Positions 1-21,607 of a stretch of DNA of 22,321 nt are shown here, in pieces (the first letter of the stretch is position 1; each line of letters opens with the position of its first letter). Position numbers and translations under genes: made by a program. Origin of the DNA: a virus; IMG/VR virus record IMGVR_UViG_3300029448_000487, positions 1 through 22,321 of that record; one strand, 5' to 3'. The notes beneath the pieces were generated by a model that saw nothing but the letters and a program-made list of their open reading frames with translations, had not been told where the DNA came from and made no database searches.

Positions 1-3000
1 AATATTTAGCTAAATTATCTGATGAATGAAGTGTAGACCATTGTGTATTTATAGTTGATAAAGCCTCTTTCATATTCATAAAAGCAATAGCGTCTCTTTG
101 AGTCGGTCTGTTTTGCCAGTCAAAAATACTAGGAGATATAACTAAACCTTTAGCGTTCTTAGAGGTAAACGAAACTCCAATACCTTCTGTAGGCATTGCC
201 ATAATATTTTGTTCAGTAATAGAACTAAATCCATCAGAAGGTCTTAATTTTCCATCTCCTCCTAAATTAGATTTACCGAAACTCTGAAGATGAGGTATGT
301 GTTTAGCGTCATACGTCTTTGCTGAAGTCTCCCCCATAGCAAGGTCAACTCCCTTTGCTTTCATCTTTTGTGCAACGTCAGGATGATAGATTAAATATCC
401 TTTTCCTAATAATTGATTTTCACCTGTTGCAAAAACGATTGTTTTAGCTCCATTAGCACCGCCCAATTCAAAGCTTTGAGCATCGTTATATTTCCCCTTT
501 AAACTCATTAAAAAAGCCATTAATTCTTTTGAGGCAAACTTAGCACCATCTAACAAAGAACTTTCTAAACTTTTCAGTTTACCTAATTCATTTCTAGCAC
601 TCTTAATAATGTCTGAAACTTGACCGCTTTCTTTTGATCTAGTAAGTTCATAATCTCTTTCCGTAATACCTTGATTATTCCATTTATGATTTGTGTCTTT
701 TTCAGCTATGTCATCTTTAACAATAGCGGTTAAATAAACAGGGTCTTTCATTCCATAATATTTACCTGTATCAATGGATTTTTGAGCAAAATCTTTTATC
801 ATTTGGTCGGGGTGATTTACAGCAGACCATTTTACAACTTCTGAATTAACTGGTTGAGTAGTTCCTCCATCTGATAACAACATTCTTTTAAATATATTTG
901 CTTGAATTTTAGCAACTTTAGACTTGTCATAGTCTGTTCCTGCCATTTCTTTAATTAATTTCTTAAACTCACTTCTACCTCCATTGTGATCTAAATAAGG
1001 CATCATAAGTTTTAACTCAACTTCATGTCTCTTTAAATTTTCAACCTTATCCATCTTGTTTTCATAAAGGTCTTTAAACACTCTTTCAAATACTTTTCTT
1101 TCGCCACTTTGAAATAATTTTCTTGTCTCTGTGTACCAATTATCAAATTCTTTATGTAAGACTCTAAGATTTTCTTTTGTTGCGGTAAAAAGAACTTTAT
1201 TCATAGGAGATACTCTCGTATAAATAAACAATTCTTTTTCAGTATTTAGAATTTCTCTTAATGTTTCAGATTTTATTTGAGGGTCAATACCTTGAAGTTG
1301 TCTTAAAATGTCTTCTGTTTTCCCTGCAAAACGAATCGCTTTGTTAATTATGGATTGAATTTCAGTAGGACTGGAAGCCATCGAGTCTATGCTAACGTTT
1401 CTTACTCTACCTGCTGTTTCCATTCCTACCATTTCATTTAAATAAATAACTTTCAGTCCTTTTTGTTCAAACCAACGAGTGTTAGGGTGTTCAACTACTG
1501 TTTTATTGTTGTCTATCTTTGCAATAGAGCTTCCAGAGTTAACCCTGTTTGTAGGAGAAACTCCTTGTAAAGTCATAAAAGAAATTTTTCTTGAGTTGAC
1601 TTGATTTAAGATTATTTCAGCGGCATCTTCTCTAAGAAATTTATCCCATTTTGACAGCTTTTGAGCATCTGTTAATTTTGGATCATTTCCTATAACTGTC
1701 CTAATATGAGTTTCAAAAGCTTTTTGAGGGTTGTCTAAAATATCTTGTTTTACATTTTCTAAAATTTTACCGTCTTCTCCAAGAAGATTGTAATTCTCAA
1801 GGATTTCAATAACTGATCTATGCTTTGAATGGATTGTCCTTTCTTTCTCCGCATTTTTAGTCAATTCCATAACATCATTATGTAAGATATGGTCTTTATT
1901 CATAACAATGCTTTGTCCAATAGACTTTCTTAACTCTCCAATCATTCCATATAAATCTCTGAAATTTCCACCTTCAGCAATATCATTTAGTTGCTCAGTA
2001 AGTGGTTTGATTGACTTGTTTTTACTATCAATATCAAGATTATGAATCTTTCTTGATAAGTTTTCTATTAAACTTGTTGCAATCTCTGGAGTAATCCCAC
2101 CACCTTTTTGACCATCATAAGCAAGGTTTTGTATTTGAACAACTAACTCTTGCATTTGATCTACTGCCTGAGATTCATGTTCATATTTCCTATGAAGAAT
2201 CCTAGATATAGGCTCCATATATCTTTTATTAATTTCAGCTAGTTCTAGTTCATTTTTAGTACCAACAATATCAGAACCTTTTAATCTGAACGAATCAGCA
2301 TATTTATCTAAACTATCTATAACTTCATCAATCTCATTTTTTGCATCTTCAGATTTATATTTATTTCTAAGCCTTATAAGATTTTCTCTTATTTTTTCTA
2401 CATCTCTTAAAGGACTGTCTGCTTGCCTATTTGGACTTTCAAGCTTTTCTTGTAAAGCAGTAATTTCTACATGAACATCTTTAATCTCTTTCTGCATGTT
2501 CATATCTTTTGATTTAAGATTAGAGAAGACCTTATCTGCATTTAAAATAGTATCACTTAAATTCTGCTCACCAAGTGCTTTGTAAATTTTAATAAAAGCT
2601 TCAGGGTCTACCTGTTCTAAATAGCGTTTATTACTATCTGTAAACATAAAATCTTTTTCTACTGCATTGGTTCCTAATACATTTTTTATAGTAGTAACCG
2701 CTCTTTTAAATAACTCTACTTCAGCTTGAGGAACTTCTCCACCTATATAGTCTTGCTTTAAAAATTCTTCAACTGCTTTTGCACTTGGTATAACTAGCTT
2801 ACCTCCCTCAATAATAGCTAACCCTTCATTTCTTAACATAGCGTGTATTCTGATCTGCCTTGAGTCTGTATTCGAGGTTCTCATTACTCGATTAAACATC
2901 ATAGCTCTCATTTGTTGAGTCCAATTGGATCCCCATTCACCTATGAATTCGTTAGTAAGTTTTCTCCAATTATCCACTAAAGGCTTAATTTGCCCTCTCT

Positions 3001-5608
3001 CTAATTTTCCTTTCGTTGAAACACTAACTTTTGCTGTTCCTCCTAAAGCTTCTTTTCTTAGTTCAAATAAGCTTCTTAACTCATCTAAGTCTCTACTAAG
3101 CTCTTTAGATTCCTCTTTAGTTAATTTATCAGATTTAATTAATTTTTTATAAACATCTATGGATTCAGCATATCGACCTTTATCCCCATTTAAACCAAAA
3201 ACATCATCTAGTTGACTAGTAAATAACCTATCCCCTTCTAGTTTGCTTTTTCCTTCTATAATATCAGCCAACCTCTCAGCAGATTCAATGGACTTAGCAG
3301 TTTTAAAATGTTTTATAAATGCATTGTCTGTAGGATGTAATTGAATCTTCTTACCACCAAATTCATTGGAAAGAATATCCATGTGTTTATTAATAATTTG
3401 CTCAGTTTGTCTTAAAAAATCATCTTTATCTTTTACTTTATTATTCCTAACCGCTCTTTCTACTAAGACATCTAAAGACTCTCTCCTACTCTGAAGGGGT
3501 CCTTCAAGCTCTCTGAGGGATTCCATAGTGCGTATGAGATCGTTTACAGTGTGTGCAGGTCCTTTGTCTACCCCTTGAGCATCAGAGATTAAACGACCTA
3601 TTACCTTACCTTCTTGATTTACTGAAATATCGTAAAGTTCTCCCAACTCATTTAACATGTTTTTATAAACTTTTAACCCTTGTTTAGCAGGCTCAATGGA
3701 TATTCTTGATAAAATTCCCTCAATTTGTAATTGAGAAATGTTATTGCCATCTTTAAACTTTAAATCCCCTAAGTGTTTTGTTAGTTGATTAAGTGTTCCT
3801 TCAGAAAGAGTTTTAACTTGGTCAGAAAGATTTCTATGATTTTCACTTGAATTGTGTTTCATTACATCATAAAGTTCTAGAATAGCTTTAGTCTTTTGAT
3901 GTTTTTCGTGAATATAGCCTTTATCACCTGTTGTTTTTGTGACTGCATTTTCCATAAGGCTATCAACAGTTTTTATGATATCTGACCCCATTTGACTTGT
4001 ATGAAGCACTGCTCCAATAGCTGCAGCGTCACTCTGTCTATCATAAAACTTTAACTTGCTTTTAACGTTATCAACATTCATACCTAACTTAGAAAGCGTA
4101 TTGTGATAAGGAGTAAAATCAGCCATATAAGTCGCTTGATTTTTAGCACCCCAATGTCCTCTCCCTTTTGTCATAATAGCAGACATAAACATGTGAGCAG
4201 ACATTTCACCTACATCCATATTTGCTAATTGAGAATCGTCAAACATCCAACTATGGTTCATAGCTAGAACACCTGCACCCATTCTAGTAAGAGTACCAGG
4301 ATTTAATAAGTCTTTTGCGTACTTAGGAGCCCAGTTCTTTATAAACTCTTTAGAGACTGCTTTTTTCATATTATTTAAGATAAAAGCAACTTCATTTATA
4401 GGCATCTTATCTAAATTCTTTAGAATGTCATCAACTCCATCATAAACTCTACCTTTAGAGTTCTTCCATCCAGCTCTAGCTAAACCTGAAGTCGTCATAA
4501 GTTGCTTTGACTCTCCACTTACCATGAGTCTCATAATATCTCGAACTGTCTCATCTCCATGTTTTTTAGCTATCGCTCTATAATTTGTATTGTTATAGCT
4601 TTTTAACAATGCATTTAATCCATTCCTAAGTTTTTCACTACCACCAGACTTTTGTGACCATAAAACATTAGGAATAGCTCTAATTGCAGGGAATGTTAAA
4701 GAGGCAACAAGAGAATGCTTTAAACTGCCTATAATTTCATCGTTTTCCCACTCGCTATCTAAAGGATTAAACCCTTTACCGCTTCGATTCATAGAGTCTA
4801 TTTTGCCTGCTATTAAACCATGTACCCCCATTAAATACATGTCATTAACTGCCATCCCTAAATAATCAGATACTTTTCCACTAATCCCTTCATTAAGACC
4901 TTTTTTCTTTAATGTTCGAGCAAACCATTCTCCTAAATCATTGACATATTTACCTTTGCCTAACTCAGTTACATAATCAGTTGATAAATCAAAAAGTTCT
5001 TTATCTGTTAATTTAATTCCATTCTTTTCAAAAGCTTCTTTTAAGATTCTAGAACTTGAGGTTGTTAATGACGAAGAAGCGTTTACAGATGCTTTCCCTG
5101 TAGTGTTTAAATCTTTTATCCATCGAACAACATTATCATCTGTTCCAAAATCAGTTAAGGTATCTTTTGATATTTTTTGAGCTTTATAATAGTCGTCAGC
5201 TTTTAAAGCACCTTTGGCGATAGTATTTTGACCTGCTTTTGTAATAAATTTATTTGCCTTTAGACCCTTTGTTGCTAACCTACCACCTTTACCGAGCAAA
5301 CCAAATGCTCCAAAAGGAGTCATTAAAGACCCTCCCTCACCAAGAATCCATCCCGCTTTACCTGCAGTGCTTAAATCTTCCCACTCTTCATTTTCATAAG
5401 CTAGTTCAGAAGCACCAAAAGTAGACCCAGAAACAAACCCTTCACTTGCGTTCCATAGAAACTCCCCTACACTGTCCAGTAGACTAGAATTGTCTATCGG
5501 TGCTATTGGAGTGTCGCTTAAATGAGCATATTCTTGAGGGGTGTAATCATTCCTTTTTTCAATTTCTTGCCTTTTAAGACTCTCTACATATTTTTCAGGT
5601 ATTTTCAT
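1..5608 (-). CDS. Giant virion/ejection-type protein, at least 1,869 residues, C-terminus beyond left edge
   Basis: One frame is open without a stop from the ATG at 5608 to the left edge. I read it codon by codon, and it gives 1,869 residues with no end. The start overlaps the stop of the 752-residue gene as TAATG; a weak GGGAT lies about 9 bases upstream. Residues 48-112 form a Gly-rich amphipathic/hydrophobic stretch (EFLWNASEGFVSGSTFG, later GAFGLLGKGG) typical of membrane-active internal virion proteins. The middle (about 250-1,500) is mostly helical and charged with coiled-coil character. Near the edge, about residues 1,687-1,764, comes DGAKFASKEL, then a beta-rich stretch, then a GVD...SAK motif. 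This loosely recalls barrel segments of phage-encoded RNA polymerases, but no DxDGD motif is inside the window. Size and position last in the virion operon fit an injected protein, either a large ejection protein or a virion RNA polymerase. The first is better supported; the exact function is not established. Confidence 0.85.
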   Translation of the reverse strand, partial: MKIPEKYVESLKRQEIEKRNDYTPQEYAHLSDTPIAPIDNSSLLDSVGEFLWNASEGFVSGSTFGASELAYENEEWEDLSTAGKAGWILGEGGSLMTPFGAFGLLGKGGRLATKGLKANKFITKAGQNTIAKGALKADDYYKAQKISKDTLTDFGTDDNVVRWIKDLNTTGKASVNASSSLTTSSSRILKEAFEKNGIKLTDKELFDLSTDYVTELGKGKYVNDLGEWFARTLKKKGLNEGISGKVSDYLGMAVNDMYLMGVHGLIAGKIDSMNRSGKGFNPLDSEWENDEIIGSLKHSLVASLTFPAIRAIPNVLWSQKSGGSEKLRNGLNALLKSYNNTNYRAIAKKHGDETVRDIMRLMVSGESKQLMTTSGLARAGWKNSKGRVYDGVDDILKNLDKMPINEVAFILNNMKKAVSKEFIKNWAPKYAKDLLNPGTLTRMGAGVLAMNHSWMFDDSQLANMDVGEMSAHMFMSAIMTKGRGHWGAKNQATYMADFTPYHNTLSKLGMNVDNVKSKLKFYDRQSDAAAIGAVLHTSQMGSDIIKTVDSLMENAVTKTTGDKGYIHEKHQKTKAILELYDVMKHNSSENHRNLSDQVKTLSEGTLNQLTKHLGDLKFKDGNNISQLQIEGILSRISIEPAKQGLKVYKNMLNELGELYDISVNQEGKVIGRLISDAQGVDKGPAHTVNDLIRTMESLRELEGPLQSRRESLDVLVERAVRNNKVKDKDDFLRQTEQIINKHMDILSNEFGGKKIQLHPTDNAFIKHFKTAKSIESAERLADIIEGKSKLEGDRLFTSQLDDVFGLNGDKGRYAESIDVYKKLIKSDKLTKEESKELSRDLDELRSLFELRKEALGGTAKVSVSTKGKLERGQIKPLVDNWRKLTNEFIGEWGSNWTQQMRAMMFNRVMRTSNTDSRQIRIHAMLRNEGLAIIEGGKLVIPSAKAVEEFLKQDYIGGEVPQAEVELFKRAVTTIKNVLGTNAVEKDFMFTDSNKRYLEQVDPEAFIKIYKALGEQNLSDTILNADKVFSNLKSKDMNMQKEIKDVHVEITALQEKLESPNRQADSPLRDVEKIRENLIRLRNKYKSEDAKNEIDEVIDSLDKYADSFRLKGSDIVGTKNELELAEINKRYMEPISRILHRKYEHESQAVDQMQELVVQIQNLAYDGQKGGGITPEIATSLIENLSRKIHNLDIDSKNKSIKPLTEQLNDIAEGGNFRDLYGMIGELRKSIGQSIVMNKDHILHNDVMELTKNAEKERTIHSKHRSVIEILENYNLLGEDGKILENVKQDILDNPQKAFETHIRTVIGNDPKLTDAQKLSKWDKFLREDAAEIILNQVNSRKISFMTLQGVSPTNRVNSGSSIAKIDNNKTVVEHPNTRWFEQKGLKVIYLNEMVGMETAGRVRNVSIDSMASSPTEIQSIINKAIRFAGKTEDILRQLQGIDPQIKSETLREILNTEKELFIYTRVSPMNKVLFTATKENLRVLHKEFDNWYTETRKLFQSGERKVFERVFKDLYENKMDKVENLKRHEVELKLMMPYLDHNGGRSEFKKLIKEMAGTDYDKSKVAKIQANIFKRMLLSDGGTTQPVNSEVVKWSAVNHPDQMIKDFAQKSIDTGKYYGMKDPVYLTAIVKDDIAEKDTNHKWNNQGITERDYELTRSKESGQVSDIIKSARNELGKLKSLESSLLDGAKFASKELMAFLMSLKGKYNDAQSFELGGANGAKTIVFATGENQLLGKGYLIYHPDVAQKMKAKGVDLAMGETSAKTYDAKHIPHLQSFGKSNLGGDGKLRPSDGFSSITEQNIMAMPTEGIGVSFTSKNAKGLVISPSIFDWQNRPTQRDAIAFMNMKEALSTINTQWSTLHSSDNLAKY

Positions 5609-7866
5609 TAATAATTATCCCAACTGCTGTAATAAGGTTTTACTCTATTTGCCCAATCTCTAAACCCTCTAATCGTATCTAATTTATCTACATAATAGAA
5701 ATAGTCTTGCATTTTAGGATCGCTAAAAAACATATCTTCGTAAAAAGAGTCAGGAATGACTTCTTCTAAGTCTTGACCAGAAATCAAATTATCCCAATGG
5801 TCTTGGCTTAAGTTTGTGTCAATAGTAGGGTCACTATCTATTGTTTGGAGATAAGATTGAAGGCTCTTTGGGTCAGAATCTAAATAGTTTTCAAGCGTGT
5901 CTCCTTCCGAAGCTCCGAAGTTAAAATTTTGTTGTTGTAAATCTGTGAGTGGTTTAAGAATATTTTCTTTTTCTACAATAACGTTCTCATTTTTAGGAGC
6001 AACTTTAGGAGGCATTTCCCCTTGAGCGTTTAATCTTTTTATCTCAGAGACTAAATCATAAAACTCTTTGCCTGACTTTTTCTCTAATATCTTATCTAAA
6101 GATGCAATTTGAGCTTCTTTTGCTCTAGAGTGTGCTTTTTGGTTTATCTGATCCCAACTCATATCTATTGTAGGATTCTCATTTAAAGCTTCTTGAATCA
6201 TTCTAGGCATTGATTTTTCACTACTAATCCATCCTTGAAGCTCATTAAACCCATAAGGGTCTATCACATCTTGAAGATTATTAAACGAACTTTGTAACTC
6301 ATCATAATATGCATCGTAATAAGGAGAGTCTAAATTAAGTTGCCCACCACCAAAAGCTCTACCTAATGTATAATTGTCTCTAGATGCTACCCCTCCTCTA
6401 ACATAAGCGAAATCTGTTATCTGATCAGAATAAACATCTCTTTCATCTCCACCACTATCTTTAAGTCTATTCAATGCATTAAATACATCTGTACCATCCA
6501 TCCCATCTAAAACAGATACTAGCATTTCTTTTTCTGTCTTAGGGGTAGTTGGTAAGGCTTTAGGTTTTATGTCGTATAAACCACCTATTTCTTTTATTAA
6601 AGTTGATTTTTGATCAACTGGAATATCGGATGTATTAATTGTTTCAACAAGATTTCTAGCTTCATCATCGGTGCTGATGTTTGCAAGCTGACTCTTAAAA
6701 GTGTCTGGTTTAAAAGACTTCTTGACTAATTGATATGGATTTGCATCATTCTTAATATTAGCCATTTCCATAGAATTTTGATCCATAGCATACATATTTG
6801 CAGACATACTTGGATGACTTCTTATTATTTGTAACAATTGCTCACTATTGGGATGCACTGCTAGTTGATTTAAAAAATCAGTAGAGGTTGTATTTAAAGC
6901 TAATGATTGTAAATCTAATACAAGTTTTTCAGGAACATCCAACCCTGTCTCTTCCTTTATTCTTCTCCATGTTTTAGCAGGATTATTTGTTTCATCATTT
7001 TCTAAAACACCTTGGATTATCTTAAAACTATCATCGCTTTTATCTATTAAAGGCTGAATTTTAGCTTTATAGGCTTGTTCTTTCTTATTTTGGATACCTA
7101 GACTACCTCCAGGATTTTCTTTATCAAATGAGGCGTTAAGACCTGCTAAAGCAAAAAGTTGAGAACTTTTATCGCTATTATTACGATAGTATTTTTTCAT
7201 ACTTTCAAAATCATCGTAATCTAAAACCCCATCTTCTCCTGCAAAGTCTGAAGCAAACTGATCAAAAAATCCTTTTTGATTTAATAATTCTTGAGTGTGA
7301 GTCTTTAGTTTATTATCCAAAAAGGCTTGCACTTCAAGTTTCCTATCGTATTCATTTTTTGCCTTACCTAGCCTTTTTTGTGTTAAGGAATCACTCTCTT
7401 TAGTTTTATATAAAGGGTTGCTAAATTTTAAATCTGATATATCGGCAGCAACTCCATAAGCGGTTTCATAATTAATCTTTTTTAATGCAATACTATTTTT
7501 TATTTCCTTAAGAGATTGTAAAGTTGATTCATACTCTTGTACTCCAAGAGCATACTCTCTTTTATCTTTTAAATCACTTTTTTGATCTATTCTCTGATTG
7601 TCATAAATTTCTTTATTATACGCTCTTGTTTCAGTTAAATCATTTGCTTGATCGAGTCTCTGCTTATCATAAATCCCTTCATTGTACTCTCTGTTTTCTG
7701 CTATCTCCTCTTTCCTTAGTCGTCTATTTTCTTCTATCTCATCTTTCCTGTATGCTCTATTTACTTGGTTCTCTCTCGCTTGTAAATCAGATTTATATAT
7801 AGAAGTTGCTCCACTAACTAAAATATCTAACCCTTTTAAAACCGCATTTATATTATCATTTGCCAT
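5608..7866 (-). CDS. Internal virion/ejection-like protein with N-terminal hendecad coiled coil (752 aa)
   Basis: The ATG at 7866 has AAGGA six bases upstream, formed partly from the stop of the preceding gene. No enzymatic motif is recognised. After a short hydrophobic N-terminus (VLKGLDILVSGATSIY), residues 27-103 form seven consecutive 11-residue repeats, each ending in Arg. This predicts a long right-handed helical bundle. The rest is polar and helical. Residues about 205-225 hold an EF-hand-like loop (GEDGVLDYDDF). The C-terminus is acidic and aromatic. It sits between two other ejection-type proteins and directly before the giant gene, with a one-base stop/start overlap, so the two are probably made together and packaged together. 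Assignment as an internal virion protein rests on context and repeat architecture, not on a recognised family. A tail fibre is less likely because beta structure is lacking. Confidence 0.85.
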   Translation of the reverse strand: MANDNINAVLKGLDILVSGATSIYKSDLQARENQVNRAYRKDEIEENRRLRKEEIAENREYNEGIYDKQRLDQANDLTETRAYNKEIYDNQRIDQKSDLKDKREYALGVQEYESTLQSLKEIKNSIALKKINYETAYGVAADISDLKFSNPLYKTKESDSLTQKRLGKAKNEYDRKLEVQAFLDNKLKTHTQELLNQKGFFDQFASDFAGEDGVLDYDDFESMKKYYRNNSDKSSQLFALAGLNASFDKENPGGSLGIQNKKEQAYKAKIQPLIDKSDDSFKIIQGVLENDETNNPAKTWRRIKEETGLDVPEKLVLDLQSLALNTTSTDFLNQLAVHPNSEQLLQIIRSHPSMSANMYAMDQNSMEMANIKNDANPYQLVKKSFKPDTFKSQLANISTDDEARNLVETINTSDIPVDQKSTLIKEIGGLYDIKPKALPTTPKTEKEMLVSVLDGMDGTDVFNALNRLKDSGGDERDVYSDQITDFAYVRGGVASRDNYTLGRAFGGGQLNLDSPYYDAYYDELQSSFNNLQDVIDPYGFNELQGWISSEKSMPRMIQEALNENPTIDMSWDQINQKAHSRAKEAQIASLDKILEKKSGKEFYDLVSEIKRLNAQGEMPPKVAPKNENVIVEKENILKPLTDLQQQNFNFGASEGDTLENYLDSDPKSLQSYLQTIDSDPTIDTNLSQDHWDNLISGQDLEEVIPDSFYEDMFFSDPKMQDYFYYVDKLDTIRGFRDWANRVKPYYSSWDNY
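7558..7788 (-). repeat. Seven tandem 11-residue (33-base) coiled-coil repeats
   Basis: These bases encode residues 27-103 of the 752-residue protein. The units end in Arg: AYRKDEIEENR, RLRKEEIAENR, EYNEGIYDKQR, LDQANDLTETR, AYNKEIYDNQR, IDQKSDLKDKR, preceded by a more diverged DLQARENQVNR. Units alternate, so a 66-base higher-order period (YNxxIYDxQR + DQxxDL) is also visible at DNA level. This suggests growth by tandem duplication. Confidence 0.8.
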
Positions 7867-7875
7867 AATTAATCC

Positions 7876-8733
7876 TTAACTAAAGTAACTATCTAGTTCG
7901 CTTGTATCTCCCTTGTAATCCTTATCTGTAGCACTTTTATAATCAGTTAACAATGCATTGTACTGCATATTCATTCTTTGCAACAACTCTGTTTCACTTT
8001 GATCTCGTTCCATAAAAGCTTTTTGTTGACCCATGTTAAAACTATCTAATCCGATTTTCTTAGACTGTTCTTCCATTCTATTTATGCCTGTATTAGACGC
8101 AAAGTCACTTTTAGATATCATATTGTCTGCAGTGTTTCTAGCTTTTTGAAAGTTTGTATTAGCAGTTAAGGTGTTTTGATCCATAGCAAAAGATTGTTTT
8201 TGATCTAAAAATCCACCTTCTCCTAAATTCTTATCTAAGGAAGTTTGAATACTTTTCATTCCACCATCTATTGCCTTATCGGCGGCTTTCTTTTCATGGT
8301 ACTTGCTATCCTTATCAAAACTAAACGCCTTCTTATCCCCAGCACCTGAAAGCCACCCCCCAATTCCATCATTTCCAAGAGTATGATCCCATGCATTTTT
8401 TGGATTTACAATAGAATCTTCCCATAAAGGATTAAGGTCGCTAAATTGAAATCCCGAACCGTCTGTTACATTACTAATAGTTTTTTTTGCAGGATTTCCA
8501 ACGTTTTTATTCCACCAATCTTTAAGTCCATATTCTTTTAAGTTTGTCATAGGGTTGGTTGTACCTGAACCATATACTGCACTTGGATCATTAACAAAAC
8601 TAAGAACCATATCTTCACCTTTGTCTTTTAAAGTATCTACTAAATAAGACTCAAAAGCAGTTAAGTGAGATTCTTTTCCTTTAATCTTTCTTATTTCGGT
8701 GTCTCCACCTCTACCATAATTCTTTTTATGCAT
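7876..8733 (-). CDS. Internal virion-like structural protein (285 aa)
   Basis: The ATG at 8733 overlaps the stop of the upstream 335-residue gene as TAATG. The N-terminus contains GRGGDTEIRKIKGKESHLTA followed by an acidic helix and a YGSGTTNPMTNLKEYG segment. From memory, a GRGGDT...H patch followed by a GSGTxNPxTxLxEY patch recurs in phage internal virion or tape-measure-like proteins. Residues 120-145 are Gly/Trp-rich (GGWLSGAGDKK), and the C-terminal half is polar, helical and Gln/Asn-rich. There is no signal peptide or full transmembrane helix. It lies in the run of four ejection-type genes. I infer a minor virion component delivered with DNA; no enzymatic function is visible. Confidence 0.8.
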   Translation of the reverse strand: MHKKNYGRGGDTEIRKIKGKESHLTAFESYLVDTLKDKGEDMVLSFVNDPSAVYGSGTTNPMTNLKEYGLKDWWNKNVGNPAKKTISNVTDGSGFQFSDLNPLWEDSIVNPKNAWDHTLGNDGIGGWLSGAGDKKAFSFDKDSKYHEKKAADKAIDGGMKSIQTSLDKNLGEGGFLDQKQSFAMDQNTLTANTNFQKARNTADNMISKSDFASNTGINRMEEQSKKIGLDSFNMGQQKAFMERDQSETELLQRMNMQYNALLTDYKSATDKDYKGDTSELDSYFS

Positions 8734-9740
8734 TATCTATCCTCCCACCAATCATAAAGCATTTTACCACCTGTTAATGCAAGACTAGCTCCTCCAGTTG
8801 CTCCAACACCCATCAGACCTGCAACTCCTAAACCTGCTTGCGCTAAACCTATTGCATCGTTAGTATCAAATTTTCCATCTCTGTTTTTATATAAATCATA
8901 CGCACTCTTTGCAACACCTAACCCTCCAGCTACTTTACCCAAAGCACCGCCACTTCCTTGCATTTTATCCATTGCTTCCATCTCAGAATGAGAATGTAAT
9001 TCAAAACCTGCAGAAGGGGAAGAAGGAGGAGTAACAAAATTATTTATTTGATTTCTTGTAAAACTTGGCATATTGCCATCAACCCCTATTTCACCTTGAC
9101 CAGATGCCCACATGTCATCAATAACGCTTTGATCTCTTAAATGGGGGTTGTCTAACATACCCTTGTAGTAAATATCGCCTCCTTCTCTTAAAAATTGATC
9201 TTTTTGGTTTTCAAGCATAGGTTTAATTAAATTGTATGTTTTTTCTTCAGTAGCATCTGCTATTAAGTTTGTGTTTTTATCGTAAATTGTTTTGTTAATA
9301 TCAGAAATTTTATTCACACCTTGTTGAGTTGCTTCCCATTGACTATTGTCATAGATGTCTCCATATTGTGAAGGTACATCAGTATTTTCCACTGTAGTTA
9401 CCGCATCTGTAGGAGAAAGCTTCCCTACTTTTGTCATATCAATTTCAGGTACTTCTGTAGGAGTCTCTGTATTAACAAATCTATTTTCTGCTTTGGTAAA
9501 AGGTCTTTTTATTTTATTCCACCAACTGTCATCCATATATTTATCTGAATACTTTAAAGAAGGGTCGTCTTGCATCATTTCAGAAGCTTTTACATTTTGC
9601 CCTTTCACATAAGCATCGCCCAGTTTATAAGCGACACTTGCAGACCTTTGCCAGTTTTCACTTCTATTCTGTTCTTTTTCCAGTCTTTTTCTTTCGATTT
9701 CTCTTAATTGTCTTCTAGCGTCTGCTATGTAGTATTCCAT
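8733..9740 (-). CDS. Internal virion-like protein with Gly-rich hydrophobic C-terminus and EF-hand-like loop (335 aa)
   Basis: The ATG at 9740 lies two bases after the stop of the 60-residue gene; AAAGGT sits about six bases upstream. Residues 1-30 are a strongly charged helix (ARRQLREIERKRLEKEQ). The centre is acidic and polar. The last 75 residues form a Gly/Ala-rich amphipathic block (GGALGKVAGGLGVAKSAYDLY and GLGVAGLMGVGATGGASLAL). They are interrupted by a dockerin/EF-hand-like loop, NRDGKFDTNDAIGL, which keeps Asn, Asp-Gly and the final Asp of a calcium loop but lacks the first Asp. Such a tail suits membrane insertion during DNA ejection. The gene is transcriptionally coupled to the 285- and 752-residue genes. 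An internal virion protein is inferred; calcium binding is only a possibility. Confidence 0.8.
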   Translation of the reverse strand: MEYYIADARRQLREIERKRLEKEQNRSENWQRSASVAYKLGDAYVKGQNVKASEMMQDDPSLKYSDKYMDDSWWNKIKRPFTKAENRFVNTETPTEVPEIDMTKVGKLSPTDAVTTVENTDVPSQYGDIYDNSQWEATQQGVNKISDINKTIYDKNTNLIADATEEKTYNLIKPMLENQKDQFLREGGDIYYKGMLDNPHLRDQSVIDDMWASGQGEIGVDGNMPSFTRNQINNFVTPPSSPSAGFELHSHSEMEAMDKMQGSGGALGKVAGGLGVAKSAYDLYKNRDGKFDTNDAIGLAQAGLGVAGLMGVGATGGASLALTGGKMLYDWWEDR

Positions 9741-9742: not shown

Positions 9743-9925
9743 CTATACCTTTGTAAACTGTTGTTTATATAAAACATTATTGTATCGAACAAACTGAATC
9801 AACCCATCTGAAGTTTGCCTTAAAACAGGTACACCCTCGTCTAATTCTTGGATATTAGGAACACCTTTCTTAATTATCAACCTTTCTTGTTTTTTATGTA
9901 ATAGGACTCTTTGATCTCTATCCAT
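9743..9925 (-). CDS. Small conserved-looking structural-module protein (60 aa)
   Basis: A GTG at 9928 would give 61 residues, but the ATG at 9925 makes a TGATG overlap with the stop of the 813-residue gene, so I prefer the ATG. The protein starts with a basic helix (RDQRVLLHKKQERLIIKK). It then has a compact beta segment, LDEGVPVLRQTSDGLIQFVR, ending YNNVLYKQQFTKV. The pattern 'eGxPvlrxTxxGLxxfvrxnnxLYk' looks like a small single fold, and I recall similar short proteins next to ejection genes in marine phages. Its function is unknown. It could be a minor tail or internal component or an assembly factor. No membrane segment or signal peptide is present. Confidence 0.75.
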   Translation of the reverse strand: MDRDQRVLLHKKQERLIIKKGVPNIQELDEGVPVLRQTSDGLIQFVRYNNVLYKQQFTKV

Positions 9926-12366
9926 CACTTAACGCTCTTAGCTCGATATACAATATTTATATCGTTAATTTCAAATCCTGCAGGAACCGTTTGGAGAGCA
10001 GAATCAACAGTTGCAGGAGAAATGTATAATCTCATAGAATACACATTGCTCCAATTAATAGCATTACCCCCATCGTCAGTCGAAGGTGGTATAAATGTAT
10101 TTGTGATCCAATTATCTTGTTGGTCTAAATCGGGATCTGTCACAAAGTTTCCAAAGGTTCCCCAATTGCTTAACTGACCTCCTGTTGCTTGACCACTGGT
10201 TGCTTTTGAAGACATAATCTCTGCTCTCAATCGAACCTTGTTAATTCCACAATTTTTATGAGTAATGTAAATTTTATAAATCTTTTTTCGTGTATTAGGA
10301 AAGCCAAAATCAATATCTTTAGTTCTAAGGTCTAAAGTATTAGTTGAGGCTGGGTTTGATGACCATTCAGCTACAACAATAGCTGTACTGTTTTGTTTTG
10401 CTATCCAAGAATTACCTTGGTAGTCTACTGTAAAATTTGTTTTGTCAATGCTATCCCCAAAAACAGAATCTCCAAATACCCAACTTTGAGTTACAAAATC
10501 ATAAATATAAACATCTCCATAATTTCCATCAGAGTCTCTAAGAATCATTAACTGTCTTTCTGTAGGTATATAAGTGACCTGTATGCCTGTTCCATCGTAA
10601 AAAACATCCCAATCTTCTTTTGAAATCAATCGTCTGTTTTGTTTTTCAAATAGATTTTCAACAGACTTACCATTATAAAAATAACAACCGTTTTTATTTA
10701 CCCAAGCAATACCAAAATCTGTTTGACAAGTAGCATTAGGATTATCAATGCCTTTGTGAATAAAAGTATCTTCTAAAAATTCTAATTCTTGAGAGATATT
10801 AATTAAATGCATTTTACGAGTCTTGAATTGAAGAATCCTATCAGCATACGTCTCTAGTTTTTTTATTTCATCACCATCATTTACAGAAGCTTCAATAACT
10901 CTTTGTGGAGAAAAAGTATCAAATCTATTAGGAAAGCTTTTCATCATAGCATCACTTTTAGTTACATTGATTCCATTTTCTTTATAGACCACATTTCCTA
11001 TATAAGCCATTCTATTAGTAACTACTGCAGTTTTATAATGAGCGGAAATAGTTTCTGTTTCTTGAGGTAATCCTGTATTACTTGTATAAGAAATAGCAGT
11101 TGAAGGACTTTTAATCCACTCAGTTGCAATAAAATACCTTAACGTTCCTCCAGTACCTTCATATGCAAATTTCCATTGAACACTGTTTTGATTAGCAACA
11201 TCTGTAATACCTTTAAATAAGTCTACTTCTGCTTGTAGGTAGTAAGTGTCTGTACCTGTTTCCCTTAAATATATATTTACGCCAGTAATTCTTACGTTCA
11301 ATACTGCACTAGCATCTCGTTTAAAATAGATACCAATTTTAGCTTGAGCGTTGTTTATCCCTGTCCAAGGAACACCTGACCCTAGTTTTTTTAAAGCAGT
11401 TTCTTGAGTTCCGTCATAAATGTAAGAGTAAGCAATATCCCAAGTTTTATTCCAGCCATTCCCTCCACTAGTTTCATCTCCACTAGTAGCATAAACTAAT
11501 TTAATGGTAGGATAAGCAGGAGAACCTGGGGTAGGGTAAATGGTTATTGTACCAACGCCTGCTCGTGTAATTGAACCGTCTGAATCTGTATAACATAAAA
11601 TTCCAGAGGTAGGAGGAATTGGTTCTGCATCAGTTAATAGCCAAGTATTATTATACTCCAATCCTTCATTATTAACCGATCCTAGATTAACGATCTGCGA
11701 AGCAGAACTTAAACCCGAAGCATTCCCATTATAAGCACTTTTGGCAAAAAAGATAGTATTGTTGTAGGTTCTAAAGTGACCGTCATCCATTCCAACGTTT
11801 GAGTCAAAAGCATTTGAATTGTAAGCATCTCTAGTTTGAAATCTCATTCGATTTATATGCCCATACCATTTCCGAGTACCTGTATAGTTTGTTCCGTTTA
11901 TTCCATCTGAAAATCGAACTATACCATCTGCTTTATAAAAAACAGGTTTTGAATTTGACGTAGGGAACACATAAGCATAAGTATCGTTATCTTCCCATCC
12001 TCCCCCTGTTGCACGACTGTACACATGTAGTTTTCTAGCGTTATTATCATAAACAATAATATAATGTGCAACCACTTCAGTTCCTGCGATAAATCCACCT
12101 GAACCATCTGCAACAATTCGAGTATCATTTGCATCTTCACCGCCTGCCCAGTCTGAACTAAAAGTATAAAGCCCATAGCCAGCTATTACTTGACCTCCTA
12201 TTGAAAAAGAAGTGTTTTGGATTTCACCTAATAATTTTATTTTACCGACATGATTAACCATCACATCAGTTGCTCTGCTTAATTCATTATCAGCAATATC
12301 TCTCCATTCAGAGTGAGTGTTTAATCCTCCGTGAAATTGGTCAATTTTGTAGATTTTTTTTGGCAT
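9925..12366 (-). CDS. Large beta-rich tail/hub structural protein (813 aa)
   Basis: The ATG at 12366 is preceded by AAAGAAAG; the first 46 bases overlap the 62-residue gene. The N-terminus, KIYKIDQFHGGLNTHSEWRD followed by DIADNELSRATDVMVN, is the 'F-GGLN...di-d-E...n' opening shared by many podovirus tail-hub/stabilisation proteins. Most of the chain is short beta strands rich in Tyr, Gly, Asn and Thr. The region from about residue 450 to 640 (KSFPNRFDTFSP, KLETYADRILQFKTRKMHLI, WVNKNGCYFYNGKSVENLF) reads like beta-propeller blades. The C-terminus is another beta domain (KIYITHKNC...KVRLRAEIMSS). It lies between the neck proteins and the ejection proteins, where short-tailed phages encode the tail tube or nozzle. 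It is a structural tail protein with good confidence; the specific T7 gp12 or P22 gp10 equivalence is inferred from position and style only. Confidence 0.85.
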   Translation of the reverse strand: MPKKIYKIDQFHGGLNTHSEWRDIADNELSRATDVMVNHVGKIKLLGEIQNTSFSIGGQVIAGYGLYTFSSDWAGGEDANDTRIVADGSGGFIAGTEVVAHYIIVYDNNARKLHVYSRATGGGWEDNDTYAYVFPTSNSKPVFYKADGIVRFSDGINGTNYTGTRKWYGHINRMRFQTRDAYNSNAFDSNVGMDDGHFRTYNNTIFFAKSAYNGNASGLSSASQIVNLGSVNNEGLEYNNTWLLTDAEPIPPTSGILCYTDSDGSITRAGVGTITIYPTPGSPAYPTIKLVYATSGDETSGGNGWNKTWDIAYSYIYDGTQETALKKLGSGVPWTGINNAQAKIGIYFKRDASAVLNVRITGVNIYLRETGTDTYYLQAEVDLFKGITDVANQNSVQWKFAYEGTGGTLRYFIATEWIKSPSTAISYTSNTGLPQETETISAHYKTAVVTNRMAYIGNVVYKENGINVTKSDAMMKSFPNRFDTFSPQRVIEASVNDGDEIKKLETYADRILQFKTRKMHLINISQELEFLEDTFIHKGIDNPNATCQTDFGIAWVNKNGCYFYNGKSVENLFEKQNRRLISKEDWDVFYDGTGIQVTYIPTERQLMILRDSDGNYGDVYIYDFVTQSWVFGDSVFGDSIDKTNFTVDYQGNSWIAKQNSTAIVVAEWSSNPASTNTLDLRTKDIDFGFPNTRKKIYKIYITHKNCGINKVRLRAEIMSSKATSGQATGGQLSNWGTFGNFVTDPDLDQQDNWITNTFIPPSTDDGGNAINWSNVYSMRLYISPATVDSALQTVPAGFEINDINIVYRAKSVK

Positions 12367-12828: not shown

Positions 12829-13710
12829 TTAGTTTGACCATGCTCTTATTTTTTTATCACTAAATTCCATTGTAACCCATCCTGTACGGATCATAGGGAA
12901 GAATGAATATCGAGCGTATTCAGCATAGTCTAGAAAAGACCCTCCTCTACAATACCATATCCTTTTTAAATCTTCTTTAGGAGTAGCGTCATCACTAACA
13001 GTAATTGAATCTATAGGCTTTGCATATAATTGATGATTATGCCCTAAGAAATAGACATCTCCATCTGTATAGACTGCCGCCATTTTATCTAATTCTAAAT
13101 CTCCATTCTTTCCACCACCTCTACCGTGACCACTTACTAAATGCCATTTCTTTGATTTAACTTGTAGCCTTGTATATCCAGGTAATTTAAAATAGGGTAC
13201 TTGCAATTCGTCTGCTAGAATCTTGGATATATCCATACCAAGAATATTAACACTGCGAATAAAATCATGGTTCCCCCCTCTAATAAATAGAAGTTTATCA
13301 GCAATTTTTTCAATTCGTTTTCTAAATGATATATGCTGATCATCGGGTTCCATTGCTTGCCCTCTTTGAGAAATCTTATAATTTGGTGGAATAAGTTCAA
13401 TGTTGTCTCCGTTTAAAAACCATCTTGCATTAGGATCAGCATCGACTTCTTCTATAAACTCATTAAAATGATCATAGCTATGTTCTTGAGCACCATGATG
13501 AACATCTGTTGCACCGTGTACTCGTATTGTAGTGTCAAAAGTATAATCAAGGATTCCTCCTGCTTCAACTTCTCCTATTTGATCGCTTATATTTTCTTCG
13601 CTTATTACTACAGAAAACCATTTACCGCACTTTGTACAGTGATAGCGTTTTCTGTCGTTTCTAGTACCTCTACGTTGCGTTTCTGTTGAGAGGCAATGTG
13701 GACATCCCAT
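12829..13710 (-). CDS. Zinc-ribbon / calcineurin-like metallophosphoesterase fusion (293 aa)
   Basis: The ATG at 13710 overlaps the upstream stop as TAATG. Residues 3-28 form a four-cysteine zinc ribbon, CPHC ... CTKC (C3, C6, C25, C28), with the basic RYHC and GKWF pattern seen in transposase-type ribbons. A complete metallophosphoesterase domain follows. Motif I is D-x-H in GATDVHH (D69, H71), motif II GDN (101-103), motif III GNHD (146-149), a histidine in VSGHGRGGG (H195), and GHNH (223-226). All expected metal ligands are present, so it should be an active two-metal phosphodiesterase or phosphatase. The ribbon probably binds nucleic acid or protein. It sits between the holin-like gene and the microproteins in the structural operon. 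The substrate is unknown; a cytosolic DNA or RNA end-processing role, or a role in virion assembly, cannot be separated from sequence. Confidence 0.92.
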   Translation of the reverse strand: MGCPHCLSTETQRRGTRNDRKRYHCTKCGKWFSVVISEENISDQIGEVEAGGILDYTFDTTIRVHGATDVHHGAQEHSYDHFNEFIEEVDADPNARWFLNGDNIELIPPNYKISQRGQAMEPDDQHISFRKRIEKIADKLLFIRGGNHDFIRSVNILGMDISKILADELQVPYFKLPGYTRLQVKSKKWHLVSGHGRGGGKNGDLELDKMAAVYTDGDVYFLGHNHQLYAKPIDSITVSDDATPKEDLKRIWYCRGGSFLDYAEYARYSFFPMIRTGWVTMEFSDKKIRAWSN

Positions 13711-13967
13711 TAAGTAAAAAGGGATCCTAAATACCCTGACAAAGCAGATGCGAGAGCTACAATAGCTACCACTACTCCTTTGTGAACTGCATTGGTTGAT
13801 TCCATTTCAGTTATCCTTGTTTCATGTTGTTTGATTGTACCATTTATTTCATCCAACCGATTTGACTGCCATTGCTGAGAGAACCACATTTTCTCTCTCC
13901 ATTCATCCATCATGATGTCGCCATCACTATTCCTTGGCATAGGCTCTAATGAGGGTTTACGACTCAT
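13710..13967 (-). CDS. Holin-like coiled-coil protein with C-terminal membrane helix (85 aa)
   Basis: Two in-frame starts exist. ATG 13973 is only three bases from GGAGG; ATG 13967 is about eight bases away and is preferred (85 instead of 87 residues). The upstream lysozyme-like gene overlaps the start region. Residues 20-60 are a charged helix (RLDEINGTIKQHETRITEME) with coiled-coil heptads. Residues 64-84 (GVVVAIVALASALSGYLGSLF) form one transmembrane segment, and the chain ends almost at once. Helix plus C-terminal membrane anchor resembles XhlA-type holin partners. Because it follows a peptidoglycan-degrading protein gene directly, a role in lysis is likely, but a virion membrane-puncturing role cannot be excluded. 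Confidence 0.8.
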   Translation of the reverse strand: MSRKPSLEPMPRNSDGDIMMDEWREKMWFSQQWQSNRLDEINGTIKQHETRITEMESTNAVHKGVVVAIVALASALSGYLGSLFT

Positions 13968-16729: not shown

Positions 16730-18304
16730 TTAACTTGCGTTCCAAATAGCGTGTTTCTCAGGCATTGAAAATTCCATACCAGCTTCGGTAAGAATTTGAT
16801 CAACTCTGCGGTCAACACCACTATTTTCAAGAGTTTGAACACCAACGTAAATTGATGTATCACGATTTACACCGTTACCTACTAGAGGTCTGTATGCAAC
16901 ATGTTTAAGATCAACACCCATGATAGCAATCTTAGTTCCGTCTAAATGGATATTTCTAACTACATTCATATCTCCATAAGGAGTTGCGATAGTAGTCATA
17001 TCAAGACCTAAGACTTTCTTGCGACCTGTTACTGCAAGGTCAGCACGAAATACAGAAGTATTTATCTTTAGGGTTTGATTAAAGTATCCACCTATTTGAT
17101 GTAACCAGTTATACACTGCAGTTGAGCAAAAGAATACTGATCCTTTTCCACCACCGTATCTTGGGTCTAATAATGCTGACATATCGTTTAAGAAATCATC
17201 TGCATTTTTATCAGCAGTCCATGAAAATACGTTTCCATAGCTAGAAACCCAATCTACTGCACCTTGTGTCGTTCTATATTTTGAGCTTTGAGAACCAAAT
17301 AACATAGATTGTTCAATATCGAACTTGTGTTCAATAAGCTTTTCTTTCCATATTCTTGCCCACTCATTACCTTCATACTTCAAAACAGTTGCACGATCAG
17401 TGTTGGTCATCGCCATTGATGTTTTCCAAATCTGAGTCATACCGTATGCAGTCTTAAAAGGTTGATCTTTCCAACTGTCTGGAAATCCAGTTCCTTTATC
17501 AAACGTAGTTCCCATAACATAGCATTTCATGTTTTCTAAATCTGCCATATTTAAAGGTTTTCCCTCTGCATCATTAATTAAACTAGCTAATGCTATACCG
17601 TGAGTTGCGTGTCCTACTACATTTTTAGAAGCACTTCCACCTGCGGTATCTACTAATGGTACATAAGCATTTGAACTAAGAGAACATGGTTTAACTACTA
17701 CCATTTTTAATAGCGTATGAGCCATGTTTGTGCTATCTGCCCAAGTGGTTGAACCTGGTACTTGAGTTGCTTCTTGGACTTTTGCCACTACATAGTCAAC
17801 TGCTTTACCTGCCGCTGCCGAAGCAAGAGGTATTCTTACTAACTGCCCAGCAATAAAGAAGATCGGTTCTGTGTTTTCAGCCCCAATCTTTACTTCGTTT
17901 TTAGTTTGACCATAGATATTAGCTACATTGCCTTCATTTTTATAATCTCCAGCCATTTTTACATAAAACACAGTATCAACAGTGTCTAATGCAACTGTAC
18001 CTAAAGCAATAGCACTGTCGTAATCCCATGTGCTATTATTATGAGAAAATCCCGCAGGATAAGCATAACGCTTATGCCAAGAACCTCTACGTTCAGTGTA
18101 TTTAAACTGAGGGTCGTCAGTTGGTTTTTTTGCTAGTTTACTTACAAGACGGAAAAATGGGTCTTGTGATATTGATAATTCAGAAACACGACTCCCAAAG
18201 TCGTATTTTCTTCTCAGGTCACCTGTATCTGGATACCCTGTTGTTATATTGTCGGTAAACGTACCAATGTCGTTACCGCCTTTGTAAAGAATGTCGTTAG
18301 CCAC
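16730..18304 (-). CDS. Major capsid protein, HK97-fold type (524 aa)
   Basis: It starts with GTG at 18304, with AAAGGAG about six bases upstream; the upstream in-frame sequence has no better start. Position after a portal and an acidic scaffold-like protein, length, and content point to the major capsid protein. Content includes a flexible N-terminus (GTFTDNITTGYPDTGDLRRK), a 'dPFFRLVSKL...DDPQFKYTERRGSWHKR' segment, long helices with Lys/Glu (WARIWKEKLIEHKFDIEQSM), and strand patterns near the end (AIMGVDLKHVAYRPLVGNG). I think the family is the SU10-like (DUF5309-type) group of HK97-fold capsids, but cannot confirm it. It has no obvious protease domain or signal peptide. It would assemble with scaffold and portal into procapsids. 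Remote-homology search or fold prediction would settle the family. Confidence 0.88.
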   Translation of the reverse strand: MANDILYKGGNDIGTFTDNITTGYPDTGDLRRKYDFGSRVSELSISQDPFFRLVSKLAKKPTDDPQFKYTERRGSWHKRYAYPAGFSHNNSTWDYDSAIALGTVALDTVDTVFYVKMAGDYKNEGNVANIYGQTKNEVKIGAENTEPIFFIAGQLVRIPLASAAAGKAVDYVVAKVQEATQVPGSTTWADSTNMAHTLLKMVVVKPCSLSSNAYVPLVDTAGGSASKNVVGHATHGIALASLINDAEGKPLNMADLENMKCYVMGTTFDKGTGFPDSWKDQPFKTAYGMTQIWKTSMAMTNTDRATVLKYEGNEWARIWKEKLIEHKFDIEQSMLFGSQSSKYRTTQGAVDWVSSYGNVFSWTADKNADDFLNDMSALLDPRYGGGKGSVFFCSTAVYNWLHQIGGYFNQTLKINTSVFRADLAVTGRKKVLGLDMTTIATPYGDMNVVRNIHLDGTKIAIMGVDLKHVAYRPLVGNGVNRDTSIYVGVQTLENSGVDRRVDQILTEAGMEFSMPEKHAIWNAS

Positions 18305-19312: not shown

Positions 19313-21607
19313 TTATTCATTGTCACTTGTCTTTGACAAGTTGTTTTGAAATTTTTGTAATTCTAAATCCATTTTACCTTTTTGAGCTTGTGCTTCATTC
19401 TGCATTACATGTTGAAGTAGCTTCTGTTTACCCTCTGTTTCAATGTATTTCTTTTTCTCGTCAGATTTAATCTGCTCTTTGTTTCGAGTAATTTCCATCT
19501 CGGCTTGCATAACCTTGCCTTTAATACCTGCTTGAACCAGTTGTCGCTCTAAGGTTTCTATTGCACCATCTTTATCTTTAATAGACTCTTGCATATTCTC
19601 AATTTGACTTTGCATTTGAGCATATAAACTTTTGCGTTTTGCGATTTGTTCTTTATTTCGTATGTCTGTCTCAGCTAATACCGCAATATCATCTACAATA
19701 CCCATTTTAAGCATTTCTTTCATTTCATCTAAGTATGCCCATCTATTAACAGGGAGTGTAGAACCTGCAACAACCTTAACATCAAACTTAGCAGAAGCAT
19801 AGTCCATTGACTTACCAATAGCTTCTCCCATATCGTTATACATAGGAATGTTAATCTCGGTTTCTTTTCCTTCTTGTAATGTATTAGGTTGAATAATTCT
19901 AAATCGTTTATTTGCACTGTAAACACTTTGAGAAAATTGCATAATAACTTCCCCAAGTTGTTTCAATGCAGGTTCAATACTGTGTTTCATCCATTGTTTA
20001 ATTCTTCGAGTTCCGTACTCATCCATAGCTAACATACCTCGGTAAGTCTCATGTTGACTTCCTGTATCTCCTTGCATAGCTGAATAAATTCCCGCAAGAT
20101 ATTCCATATCCGTTTTACCTTCTTGAACAATGCTAAAAAAAGCATTAGATAACGGTGCAGGCATTACAGGAGTTGGAGCTTCTGATCCTGCTCGTATTGG
20201 AAGTAAAGCACCAGGGGAGGCTGAGTATTTTTCCCATGTCTCAGCATCAATAGACCCTTCTTCATACATCCAACGTAAGGATGAACCAAGGGAAGCATTG
20301 TGAACGAGGATTTGGTGACTTTTGTTTATTTCTCTCTGTTTGCCTATTAAAGGTGAAACTGCAGACATTGAGAAAGGCGTACCAGTCCATTTAAAATGGA
20401 AAGGAACTAGCGGGTAATCTTTAACGGTGTCAGGTAAAACTTTTTCATATAAAAACTGACCTCCTGCTGTGCAACACAACTTAATTCTTGTTCCTTTAAA
20501 AGGAATCATTTCTATTACATTTTTAGAAAACTCTCTATCTTTAATTAAGATATCAAACTCTTTCTTAGAAACCACTTTGTTTTCAATCTTACTAGCTTCT
20601 TTCTGTAAAAGACTCATTTGTTCTTGTGAAAAAGCTTGGAGTTGTTGTTCCATTTCATCAGATGCTTTTTTCATTTCCAATTCAAATCTTTGCGGTAACA
20701 TCTTACCTGACTGAACTGCCATTTGCATCTGTTGTTGTTTTTCCATCATTTGAACTTCAAGTTCTTGTTTCATCTCCATAACCATAACTTGAATCTGTTC
20801 TTGCATCTGTTTTAATTGTTCAGGTGAAGGTGGAATCCTATAAAAAACATTCACATATTCAACTTGTACTTTTTCATACGTTTCAAAAAACTCAACCATT
20901 TCATCCATAGTTCCGTCTGATCTAGCTGAAGCTGAATTGTTATTGTCTTTAGGGGTAAATAAAGATTGTTCTGAGTCATGCATTGCTCTATCTGAATACA
21001 CATCATAGGTTTCAACATTGTGAGCTTTTTTAATCTTTCTTTTGTGTTCAGGAAATAACTTTTCTAAATGATTTCTAGGCAACATTTTTCTAATAATTAT
21101 ATACGATGCATCTCTAAACAACATATCTCTTGATTTAGGATCTACATATACATCAAAAGGTTCAGGTTGTTTTAAGGTAACCTCACCCATTCCATTATCC
21201 ATATTTGGATCAACGTCAACTAAAAAATAACCAACAGACTTACATATCGAATCGTTTATAGCATTTGCATATAATGTAGACCCCGAAGATAAGTTCCATA
21301 TATAATCAGATAAATCACTAAAGACTGCTGCGACATCACTATCTGATCCTTCTGAACCCACTGCTTGCCATCTAGGATTATTGGCAGTAGCGTAAAAGTT
21401 TAACATTTCTACAACAGGCATAATCCTATTAATAGTAAACGTAGGCATGCCTTGTTCTTCTAAGTTGTCTTTTTCGTCTTGAGAAAGTTGAGAATCATTA
21501 GCAAATTCATACCCTTTGGTATTAATCCGTTCCCATTGCTGTCTTTCCCAAGTCTCAGCAAGGTTAAATAACTCTTTGACTTTATCTGCTTTTTTATTTT
21601 TTTTCAT
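19313..21607 (-). CDS. Portal protein, P22-type size (764 aa)
   Basis: AAGGT lies five to six bases before the ATG at 21607. Portal features: a long N-terminal helix (AETWERQQWERINTKG), 'PTFTINRIMPVVEMLNFYAT' (a motif of podovirus portals), the NPRW...DLSDYIWNLSSGS region, and 'EPFDVYVDPKSRDMLFRDAS', the wing/stem beta part. Later come KRKIKKAH, KTDMEYLAGIYSAMQGD, and MDEYGTRRIKQWMKHSIEP, the crown-side helix. Residues about 650-764 form a charged helix (QIENMQESIKDKDGAIETLE...) that could form a coiled-coil barrel as in P22 gp1. The odd feature is a Met/Gln-rich helix at about residues 262-348, inside the wing region. As the twelve-fold vertex it would anchor terminase and the tail. Confidence 0.9.
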   Translation of the reverse strand: MKKNKKADKVKELFNLAETWERQQWERINTKGYEFANDSQLSQDEKDNLEEQGMPTFTINRIMPVVEMLNFYATANNPRWQAVGSEGSDSDVAAVFSDLSDYIWNLSSGSTLYANAINDSICKSVGYFLVDVDPNMDNGMGEVTLKQPEPFDVYVDPKSRDMLFRDASYIIIRKMLPRNHLEKLFPEHKRKIKKAHNVETYDVYSDRAMHDSEQSLFTPKDNNNSASARSDGTMDEMVEFFETYEKVQVEYVNVFYRIPPSPEQLKQMQEQIQVMVMEMKQELEVQMMEKQQQMQMAVQSGKMLPQRFELEMKKASDEMEQQLQAFSQEQMSLLQKEASKIENKVVSKKEFDILIKDREFSKNVIEMIPFKGTRIKLCCTAGGQFLYEKVLPDTVKDYPLVPFHFKWTGTPFSMSAVSPLIGKQREINKSHQILVHNASLGSSLRWMYEEGSIDAETWEKYSASPGALLPIRAGSEAPTPVMPAPLSNAFFSIVQEGKTDMEYLAGIYSAMQGDTGSQHETYRGMLAMDEYGTRRIKQWMKHSIEPALKQLGEVIMQFSQSVYSANKRFRIIQPNTLQEGKETEINIPMYNDMGEAIGKSMDYASAKFDVKVVAGSTLPVNRWAYLDEMKEMLKMGIVDDIAVLAETDIRNKEQIAKRKSLYAQMQSQIENMQESIKDKDGAIETLERQLVQAGIKGKVMQAEMEITRNKEQIKSDEKKKYIETEGKQKLLQHVMQNEAQAQKGKMDLELQKFQNNLSKTSDNE

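Follow-up and report, generated by a model that had tools for sequence, protein, structure and literature searches.

The window, i.e., the whole stretch of DNA analyzed here, comprises all 22,321 bases of its virus record and carries at one edge a giant open reading frame (ORF) on the minus strand, with genes for structural proteins upstream of it. The features that bear on its interpretation are as follows.

2..5608, minus strand: giant ORF, residues 1 to 1869 of an estimated ~2,980, with its 3' end beyond the record; it would comprise the N-terminal region, the linker, and the DPBB-B half of a proposed single-chain two-barrel RNA polymerase.
104..571, minus strand: predicted DPBB-B (beta-like) barrel, residues ~1680 to 1835, delineated from motifs, the columns of a 23-sequence alignment, and the strands of structural models.
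854..889, minus strand: K-R-x3-[LS]DGGTT motif, residues 1574 to 1585, just N-terminal of DPBB-B.
2684..4456, minus strand: best-conserved N-terminal region, residues ~385 to 975 (approximate boundaries), common to the distant V-type giants (see below); a [PT]RMxxGxxAMN motif lies within it at 4256 to 4288.
5608..7866, minus strand: 752-aa protein, directly upstream of the giant and overlapping its start by 1 nt; cargo/ejection candidate by position.
7876..8733, minus strand: 285-aa protein; cargo/ejection candidate from position only.
8733..9740, minus strand: 335-aa protein with a Gly-rich hydrophobic C terminus; cargo/ejection candidate.
9925..12366, minus strand: 813-aa protein in the place of the crAss-like tail-stabilization/muzzle gene, an analogy by position only.
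16730..18304, minus strand: major capsid protein, SU10-type (PF17236, E = 1.6e-20; phrog_1328).
19313..21607, minus strand: P22-like portal protein (PF16510, E = 3e-45; phrog_156, E = 4e-59).

The giant ORF starts with an ATG at 5608 and runs through 1,869 codons to position 2 with zero stops, remaining open at the edge, whereas shuffled versions of the same 5.6 kb held no open frame longer than 128 codons. The initial annotation had described just such a single stop-free frame of at least 1,869 aa, and its length can now be put in numbers from complete relatives of 2,934 to 3,168 aa. As the window is the entire record, the last part of the gene is out of reach in its own genome. The same annotation had argued for membrane passage from a Gly-rich hydrophobic N terminus. 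Residues 48 to 112 are indeed Gly rich (22%), but the highest 19-residue Kyte-Doolittle mean of the giant is 1.19, too low for a membrane segment; a membrane-spanning N terminus was rejected on this basis, and hydropathy lends the argument no support. Only the 335-aa neighbor comes near a value of 1.6 (1.54 at residue 296).

Three proteins (752, 285, and 335 aa) do lie immediately upstream of the giant, as had been noted, with an ejection role proposed from position. None of the three matched a family in the Pfam or PHROGs libraries above threshold, and in relatives of this phage a large protein occupies the place of the 752-aa gene. The resulting order (tail protein, 335, 285, 752, giant) resembles that of phages phi14:2 and crAss001. 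Two further ORFs of the window may be recorded here. One (12829 to 13710, minus strand) lies in the structural module and encodes a metallophosphoesterase-like protein (PF12850, E = 4e-4, below the cutoff) with a CPHC...CTKC zinc ribbon at its N terminus; phi14:2 likewise has a metallophosphoesterase in its structural module. The other (13957 to 14403, minus strand) encodes a 148-aa phrog_3108 protein (E = 9e-29) beside small membrane-type ORFs and is, by position, a possible lysis gene. The IMG sample numbers suggest a marine origin for the fragment.

Searches with the window giant recovered no match in PHROGs, Pfam, or (at the sequence level) the PDB; TBLASTN against 50,697 phage records and pattern scans of IMG/VR and GTDB likewise returned nothing. 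Having matched nothing itself, the giant was traced in other genomes through the portal protein of the window, which matches at least 212 uncultured contigs; 80 of these were retained. Comparison of the giant with 29 portal-sharing records yielded six homologs with open frames of 2,943 to 3,097 aa, one of them (2,979 aa) 36% identical across window residues 1 to 1863. A profile built from these six recovered 34 loci and one confined to the motif region (see below) 36, the two sets overlapping. Complete relatives measure about 2,930 to 3,170 aa and are 20 to 37% identical to the window giant; for the representative L114, the figure is 35.9% over 1,792 aligned residues. The late module holds a giant gene in all nine examined records of >35 kb, six of them with the type found in the window (W), two with a second type (V; G022 and G017), and one (G025) with a third. 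The V and W families are linked by HHalign over profile columns 396 to 986 (E = 3e-15) and again at DPBB-B (E = 0.0015). The third giant (L096; 15 to 3374 and 42027 to 47095 of a 47,095-base record, split over the record ends) escapes both profiles and carries RYPRTTPNDLTILRL...GDYDFDE, an RNA polymerase (RNAP)-like motif; a search for further relatives of it found none, and a nonhomologous or extremely fast polymerase replacement at one locus is possible. TBLASTN with the window giant and with L114 matched no cultured phage, and a cultured member of the clade was not found among the 50,697 phage records.

Several additional features of these genomes were observed. In most relatives, the giant is followed by a protein of 882 to 964 aa that belongs to no recognized family (L107:1288-4170, plus strand, and equivalents); in phi14:2, too, a large structural protein comes after the virion RNAP. 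In G026, a 2,310-aa tail-type protein (L108:10620-17552, plus strand) ends in a C-terminal Peptidase_G2 autoproteolytic domain (E = 5e-34), and the terminase is only ~24 to 25% identical to those of known phages. Near its two ends (the beginning of L113, ~20 to 70, and the end of L105, ~53010 to 53060), the 53-kb G013 record repeats a stretch of at least ~50 bases, which suggests a genome that is almost closed or has terminal redundancy. A search of the intergenic regions for a shared promoter-like element gave nothing usable; a triple repeat in G013, considered as such an element, was discarded because it arose partly from the overlapping contig ends.

In an alignment of the near-full-length relatives, residues ~600 to 1400 are poorly conserved, and two blocks of conservation stand out in the C-terminal half. 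The second of these contains Q-R-D-x-D-G-D at about residue 2157 in every W-type relative that spans the site. The extended form N-x3-D-x-R-x3-Q-R-D-x-D-G-D[HR] is kept in all 22 rows of the alignment of this block (A3), including rows that drop to 24 to 27% identity with the first, and also in relatives added later. By its form, this is the predicted metal-binding loop of a beta'-type double-psi barrel (DPBB-A), for which the signature has been given as DxDGD (PMC7598289) or DxDxD (PMC10770324). At the equivalent place, V-type giants have DADYDMDK (NRQP...DADYDMDK) and the G025 giant has DYDFDE (RYP...GDYDFDE). Single occurrences of DxDGD mean nothing, since ~9% of shuffled giants contain one; the weight of this evidence lies in strict conservation and in the variants found at the same place. 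A combined pattern, [RA]xP-D-R-DxDxD, written post hoc, was found in 28 of 33 W-type giants, all six V-type giants, and the G025 giant, as against none of 314 other ORFs and 6 of 2,400 shuffled sequences.

The first conserved block precedes the aspartates and comprises DG-x-K, KG, NG-x-KT, LGKG-x5-P, and VD-x3-G-x3-AK. It is complete in the window giant (residues 1686 to 1764, with NGxKT, LGKG, and AK at 1719 to 1764). Across 23 sequences including that of the window, the motifs of this barrel (LDGxK, KG, NGxKT, LGKGxxxxxP, VDxxxGxxxAK, and S-x-S-x-[FM]D-x-Q) are invariant or nearly so, as are columns K120, R121, and D126 to T129 of alignment A2, which form the K-R-x3-[LS]DGGTT motif just upstream. 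A lysine-bearing block before DxDGD is the order in which DPBB-B occurs in single-chain enzymes, and the lysines of the giant are presumably the catalytic ones. The copy in the window stops before the catalytic aspartates, so that it displays DPBB-B only; its membership in the two-barrel RNAPs is given by the motif and fold of its relatives.

AlphaFold models were obtained for two different representatives, L114 and L132, whose full-length proteins share 25.6% identity. The model of L114 residues 1460 to 2610 has a pLDDT of 76 and a pTM of 0.70, and that of the L132 core has a pLDDT of 81 and a pTM of 0.81; the DPBB-B strand pattern is present in both. Around the aspartate motif, the model predicts a strand, a helix, the DxDGD loop, a strand, and a helix. 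After DPBB-A comes a 30-residue helix (582 to 611), a bridge-helix candidate, and then a trigger-loop candidate, a helix-loop-helix in which N, D, G, R, and P residues are invariant or nearly so; both candidates are named for their place in the expected order. In Foldseek searches of the PDB with the L132 core, the first 13 matches are all two-barrel RNAPs, headed by Arabidopsis RDR2 (E = 5.8e-4, probability 1.00) and the phi14:2 virion RNAP (6vr4; E = 1.3e-3, probability 0.98) and followed by nonvirion RNAPs of the P23-45 group (ranks 3 to 6), African swine fever virus (ASFV) RNAP, plant Pol IV, and AR9 RNAP. The L114 model places maize RDR2 first (E = 0.022). As global TM-scores are low (0.27) and the rmsd is large, the fold evidence rests on the Foldseek E-values, the purity of the top ranks, and the position of the motif, and the predicted two-barrel match is a fold-class assignment rather than a close superposition. 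Against BFVD, the L114 model matched the giants of the crAss-like phages cr118_1 (E = 3.6e-8) and cr50_1 (E = 1.2e-6), each with a probability of 1.00, as well as viral proteins without a name (E = 8e-22 for the best). The cr50_1 giant (NC_055868, 65825 to 80149; L154) is itself matched by the phi14:2 virion RNAP and carries SDFDIDK, in light of which its annotation as a DNA helicase looks wrong. The cr118_1 giant, also annotated as a DNA helicase, is matched by fold only.

The computations show the family length, the DxDGD motif of the W-type relatives, the lysine barrel in the window, the two-barrel fold match, and the crAss-like gene order. We consider it very likely that the giant is a single-chain, two-barrel, DNA-dependent RNAP of ~3,000 residues, and we propose that it is packaged in the head, ejected with the cargo proteins, and able to transcribe the first phage genes without the host enzyme. 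We infer that the window protein continues as its relatives do, is catalytically active, is carried in the virion, and transcribes early genes. Rather than reaching an early stop with no globular domain, all complete relatives run ~1,100 residues further and bear the polymerase motif.

The most serious alternative is a two-barrel RNAP that is made during infection and stays out of the virion, since P23-45 and phiKZ possess both virion and nonvirion RNAPs (PMC10770324, PMC7598289). The gene of such an enzyme would normally sit among the early genes, whereas the giant gene ends the structural module, straight after the cargo-like genes and in the crAss-like order. Its polymerase is fused to ~1,400 further residues, and the ORFs of at least 90 aa in nine relatives yielded no further protein with a conserved DxDxD. 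Altogether, a nonvirion enzyme seems improbable to us. Less probable still is a structural or ejection protein that derives from or resembles an RNAP and is no longer catalytic. The extreme sequence divergence of the giant from all known RNAPs would fit such a protein, as would the Ala that the W type has in place of the R-x-P arginine of the V type, G025, and the crAss-like RNAPs. However, the three aspartates are kept in all W-type members that span the site, in the V type, and in G025, which argues against a dead enzyme, for which losses in one lineage or another would be expected.

The N4-type (T7-like) virion RNAP and the polyvalent injected effector, which the initial annotation had listed beside an ejection protein, are recommended by genome position, giant size, and the association with ejection-type genes. 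The virion RNAP of N4 is a giant injected protein of a podovirus and has a T7-like fold. Of this proposal, the RNAP part has strong support from motif and fold. The N4 type gives way to a two-barrel enzyme: no profile of the N4 virion RNAP matched, it is absent both from the PDB profile matches and from the fold matches listed, and the top structure matches are two-barrel enzymes. The polyvalent effector fails for want of a domain: no polyvalent-domain profile matched, and Pfam effector/polyvalent domains were absent above the cutoff from the window protein and its relatives. We accord either reading a negligible probability. The equally implausible notion of an EF-hand-like calcium-binding loop (DNDGD) in a giant structural protein could appeal to the occurrence of DxDGD[G] in EF-hands and to very weak calmodulin/troponin profile matches (E = 0.16 or worse), part of a PDB profile search by sequence whose yield was confined to noise from coiled-coil, designed, or EF-hand proteins, but these matches fall on profile residues 39 to 127, ~570 residues from the motif, the sixth motif position is His or Arg with Gly absent, the model has helix-loop-strand against the helix-loop-helix of EF-hands, and the fold search gives RNAPs and no EF-hand proteins.

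Returning to the packaged two-barrel RNAP, we propose its course by analogy with the crAss-like phages and P23-45. In the former, mass spectrometry of virions detected cargo and RNAP proteins, and their ejection is believed to precede that of the DNA (PMC10172136); in the latter, the pre-early genes are transcribed by a virion polymerase (PMC10770324). The giant, whose presence in the virion we infer from gene position only, would be packaged in the phage head, thread into the host together with the 335-, 285-, and 752-aa proteins, refold inside, and transcribe the early phage genes without the host enzyme. The large N-terminal portion outside the polymerase may serve to link the giant to packaging or translocation. 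Given the active-site signature and predicted RNAP fold of the relatives, the phages of the clade probably deliver a transcription apparatus of their own to the host, as gut crAss-like phages do, although with a sequence too divergent to be recognized in standard database searches.

In cellular enzymes, the R-x-P arginine contacts the incoming nucleotide and helps select ribonucleotides. It seems to have been lost in the W type, which has [HN]A[IV]P (variants PIP and SIP) at L114 ~2119 to 2122, against NRQP in the V type, RYP in G025, and YRIP in crAss-like RNAPs. One could go further and regard the W, V, and G025 giants, three mutually near-unrecognizable versions at one locus, as one kind of single-chain two-barrel virion RNAP that forms a deep branch of the RDR/crAss-like enzymes and in which the missing arginine of the W type may alter nucleotide selection; as a whole, we think this rather unlikely.

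Packaged two-barrel RNAPs have been described for few phage groups, namely, crAss-like, P23-45-like, and jumbo phages, and a search of the open-access literature found no description of the polymerase of this clade. The giants apparently constitute an undescribed RNAP family, one that sequence searches do not recognize; the uncultured clade that carries it is widespread, its portal being shared by at least 212 contigs. They add ~30 diverse complete single-chain polymerases that bear on the kinship of RNA interference and cellular RNAPs, and they open to testing whether these phages transcribe their early genes independently of the host. They also illustrate how a frame at a contig edge can hide its informative domain and how relatives recover it.

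Among known systems, the giant is most usefully compared with the phi14:2 virion RNAP (PDB code 6VR4; gp077, 2,180 aa, KC821624), with which it shares a single-chain two-barrel core having DPBB-B before DPBB-A and, as also with the Crassvirales homologs, giant size and a place after the tail and cargo genes. The catalytic loop differs, being QRDxDGDH in the W type against xDFD[IV]DK in crAss-like enzymes. HHalign gave no significant match to 12 crAss-like RNAPs, whatever the window size (probability of 0.4% or lower), although the motif-sized alignment was in register (P = 0.27), and we therefore claim no sequence homology; many pairs of two-barrel families are likewise nonsignificant by profile (PMC10770324). 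By terminase and capsid family, the phage is assigned outside Crassvirales: crAss001 has phrog_6681, 6547, and 11589 for its terminase, portal, and major capsid proteins, against phrog_38 (G026 terminase), 156, and 1328 in the clade of the window, the broad phrog_156 of the portal alone being common to both and weak in crAss001. Genome records of the relatives reach ~62 kb, against ~100 kb for crAss-like phages. The eukaryotic RNA-dependent RNAPs RDR2 and QDE-1 resemble the giant in their single chain and two-barrel core, RDR2 being the top PDB fold match of both models; they differ as cellular RNA interference enzymes that use RNA templates, with ~9% identity and without the phage-type N-terminal extension. 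Of the two P23-45 enzymes, nonvirion gp64 is represented by the gp64-type structures at ranks 3 to 6 of the L132 core matches, whereas gp96 offers the parallel of a two-barrel RNAP within a giant virion-type protein for which the sequence clue is DxDxD only (PMC10770324). In gp96, the RNAP is N terminal and fused to a tape measure protein of a long-tailed phage (PMC10770324), while in the family of the window it occupies the C-terminal half of the protein, in a phage with a P22-like portal.
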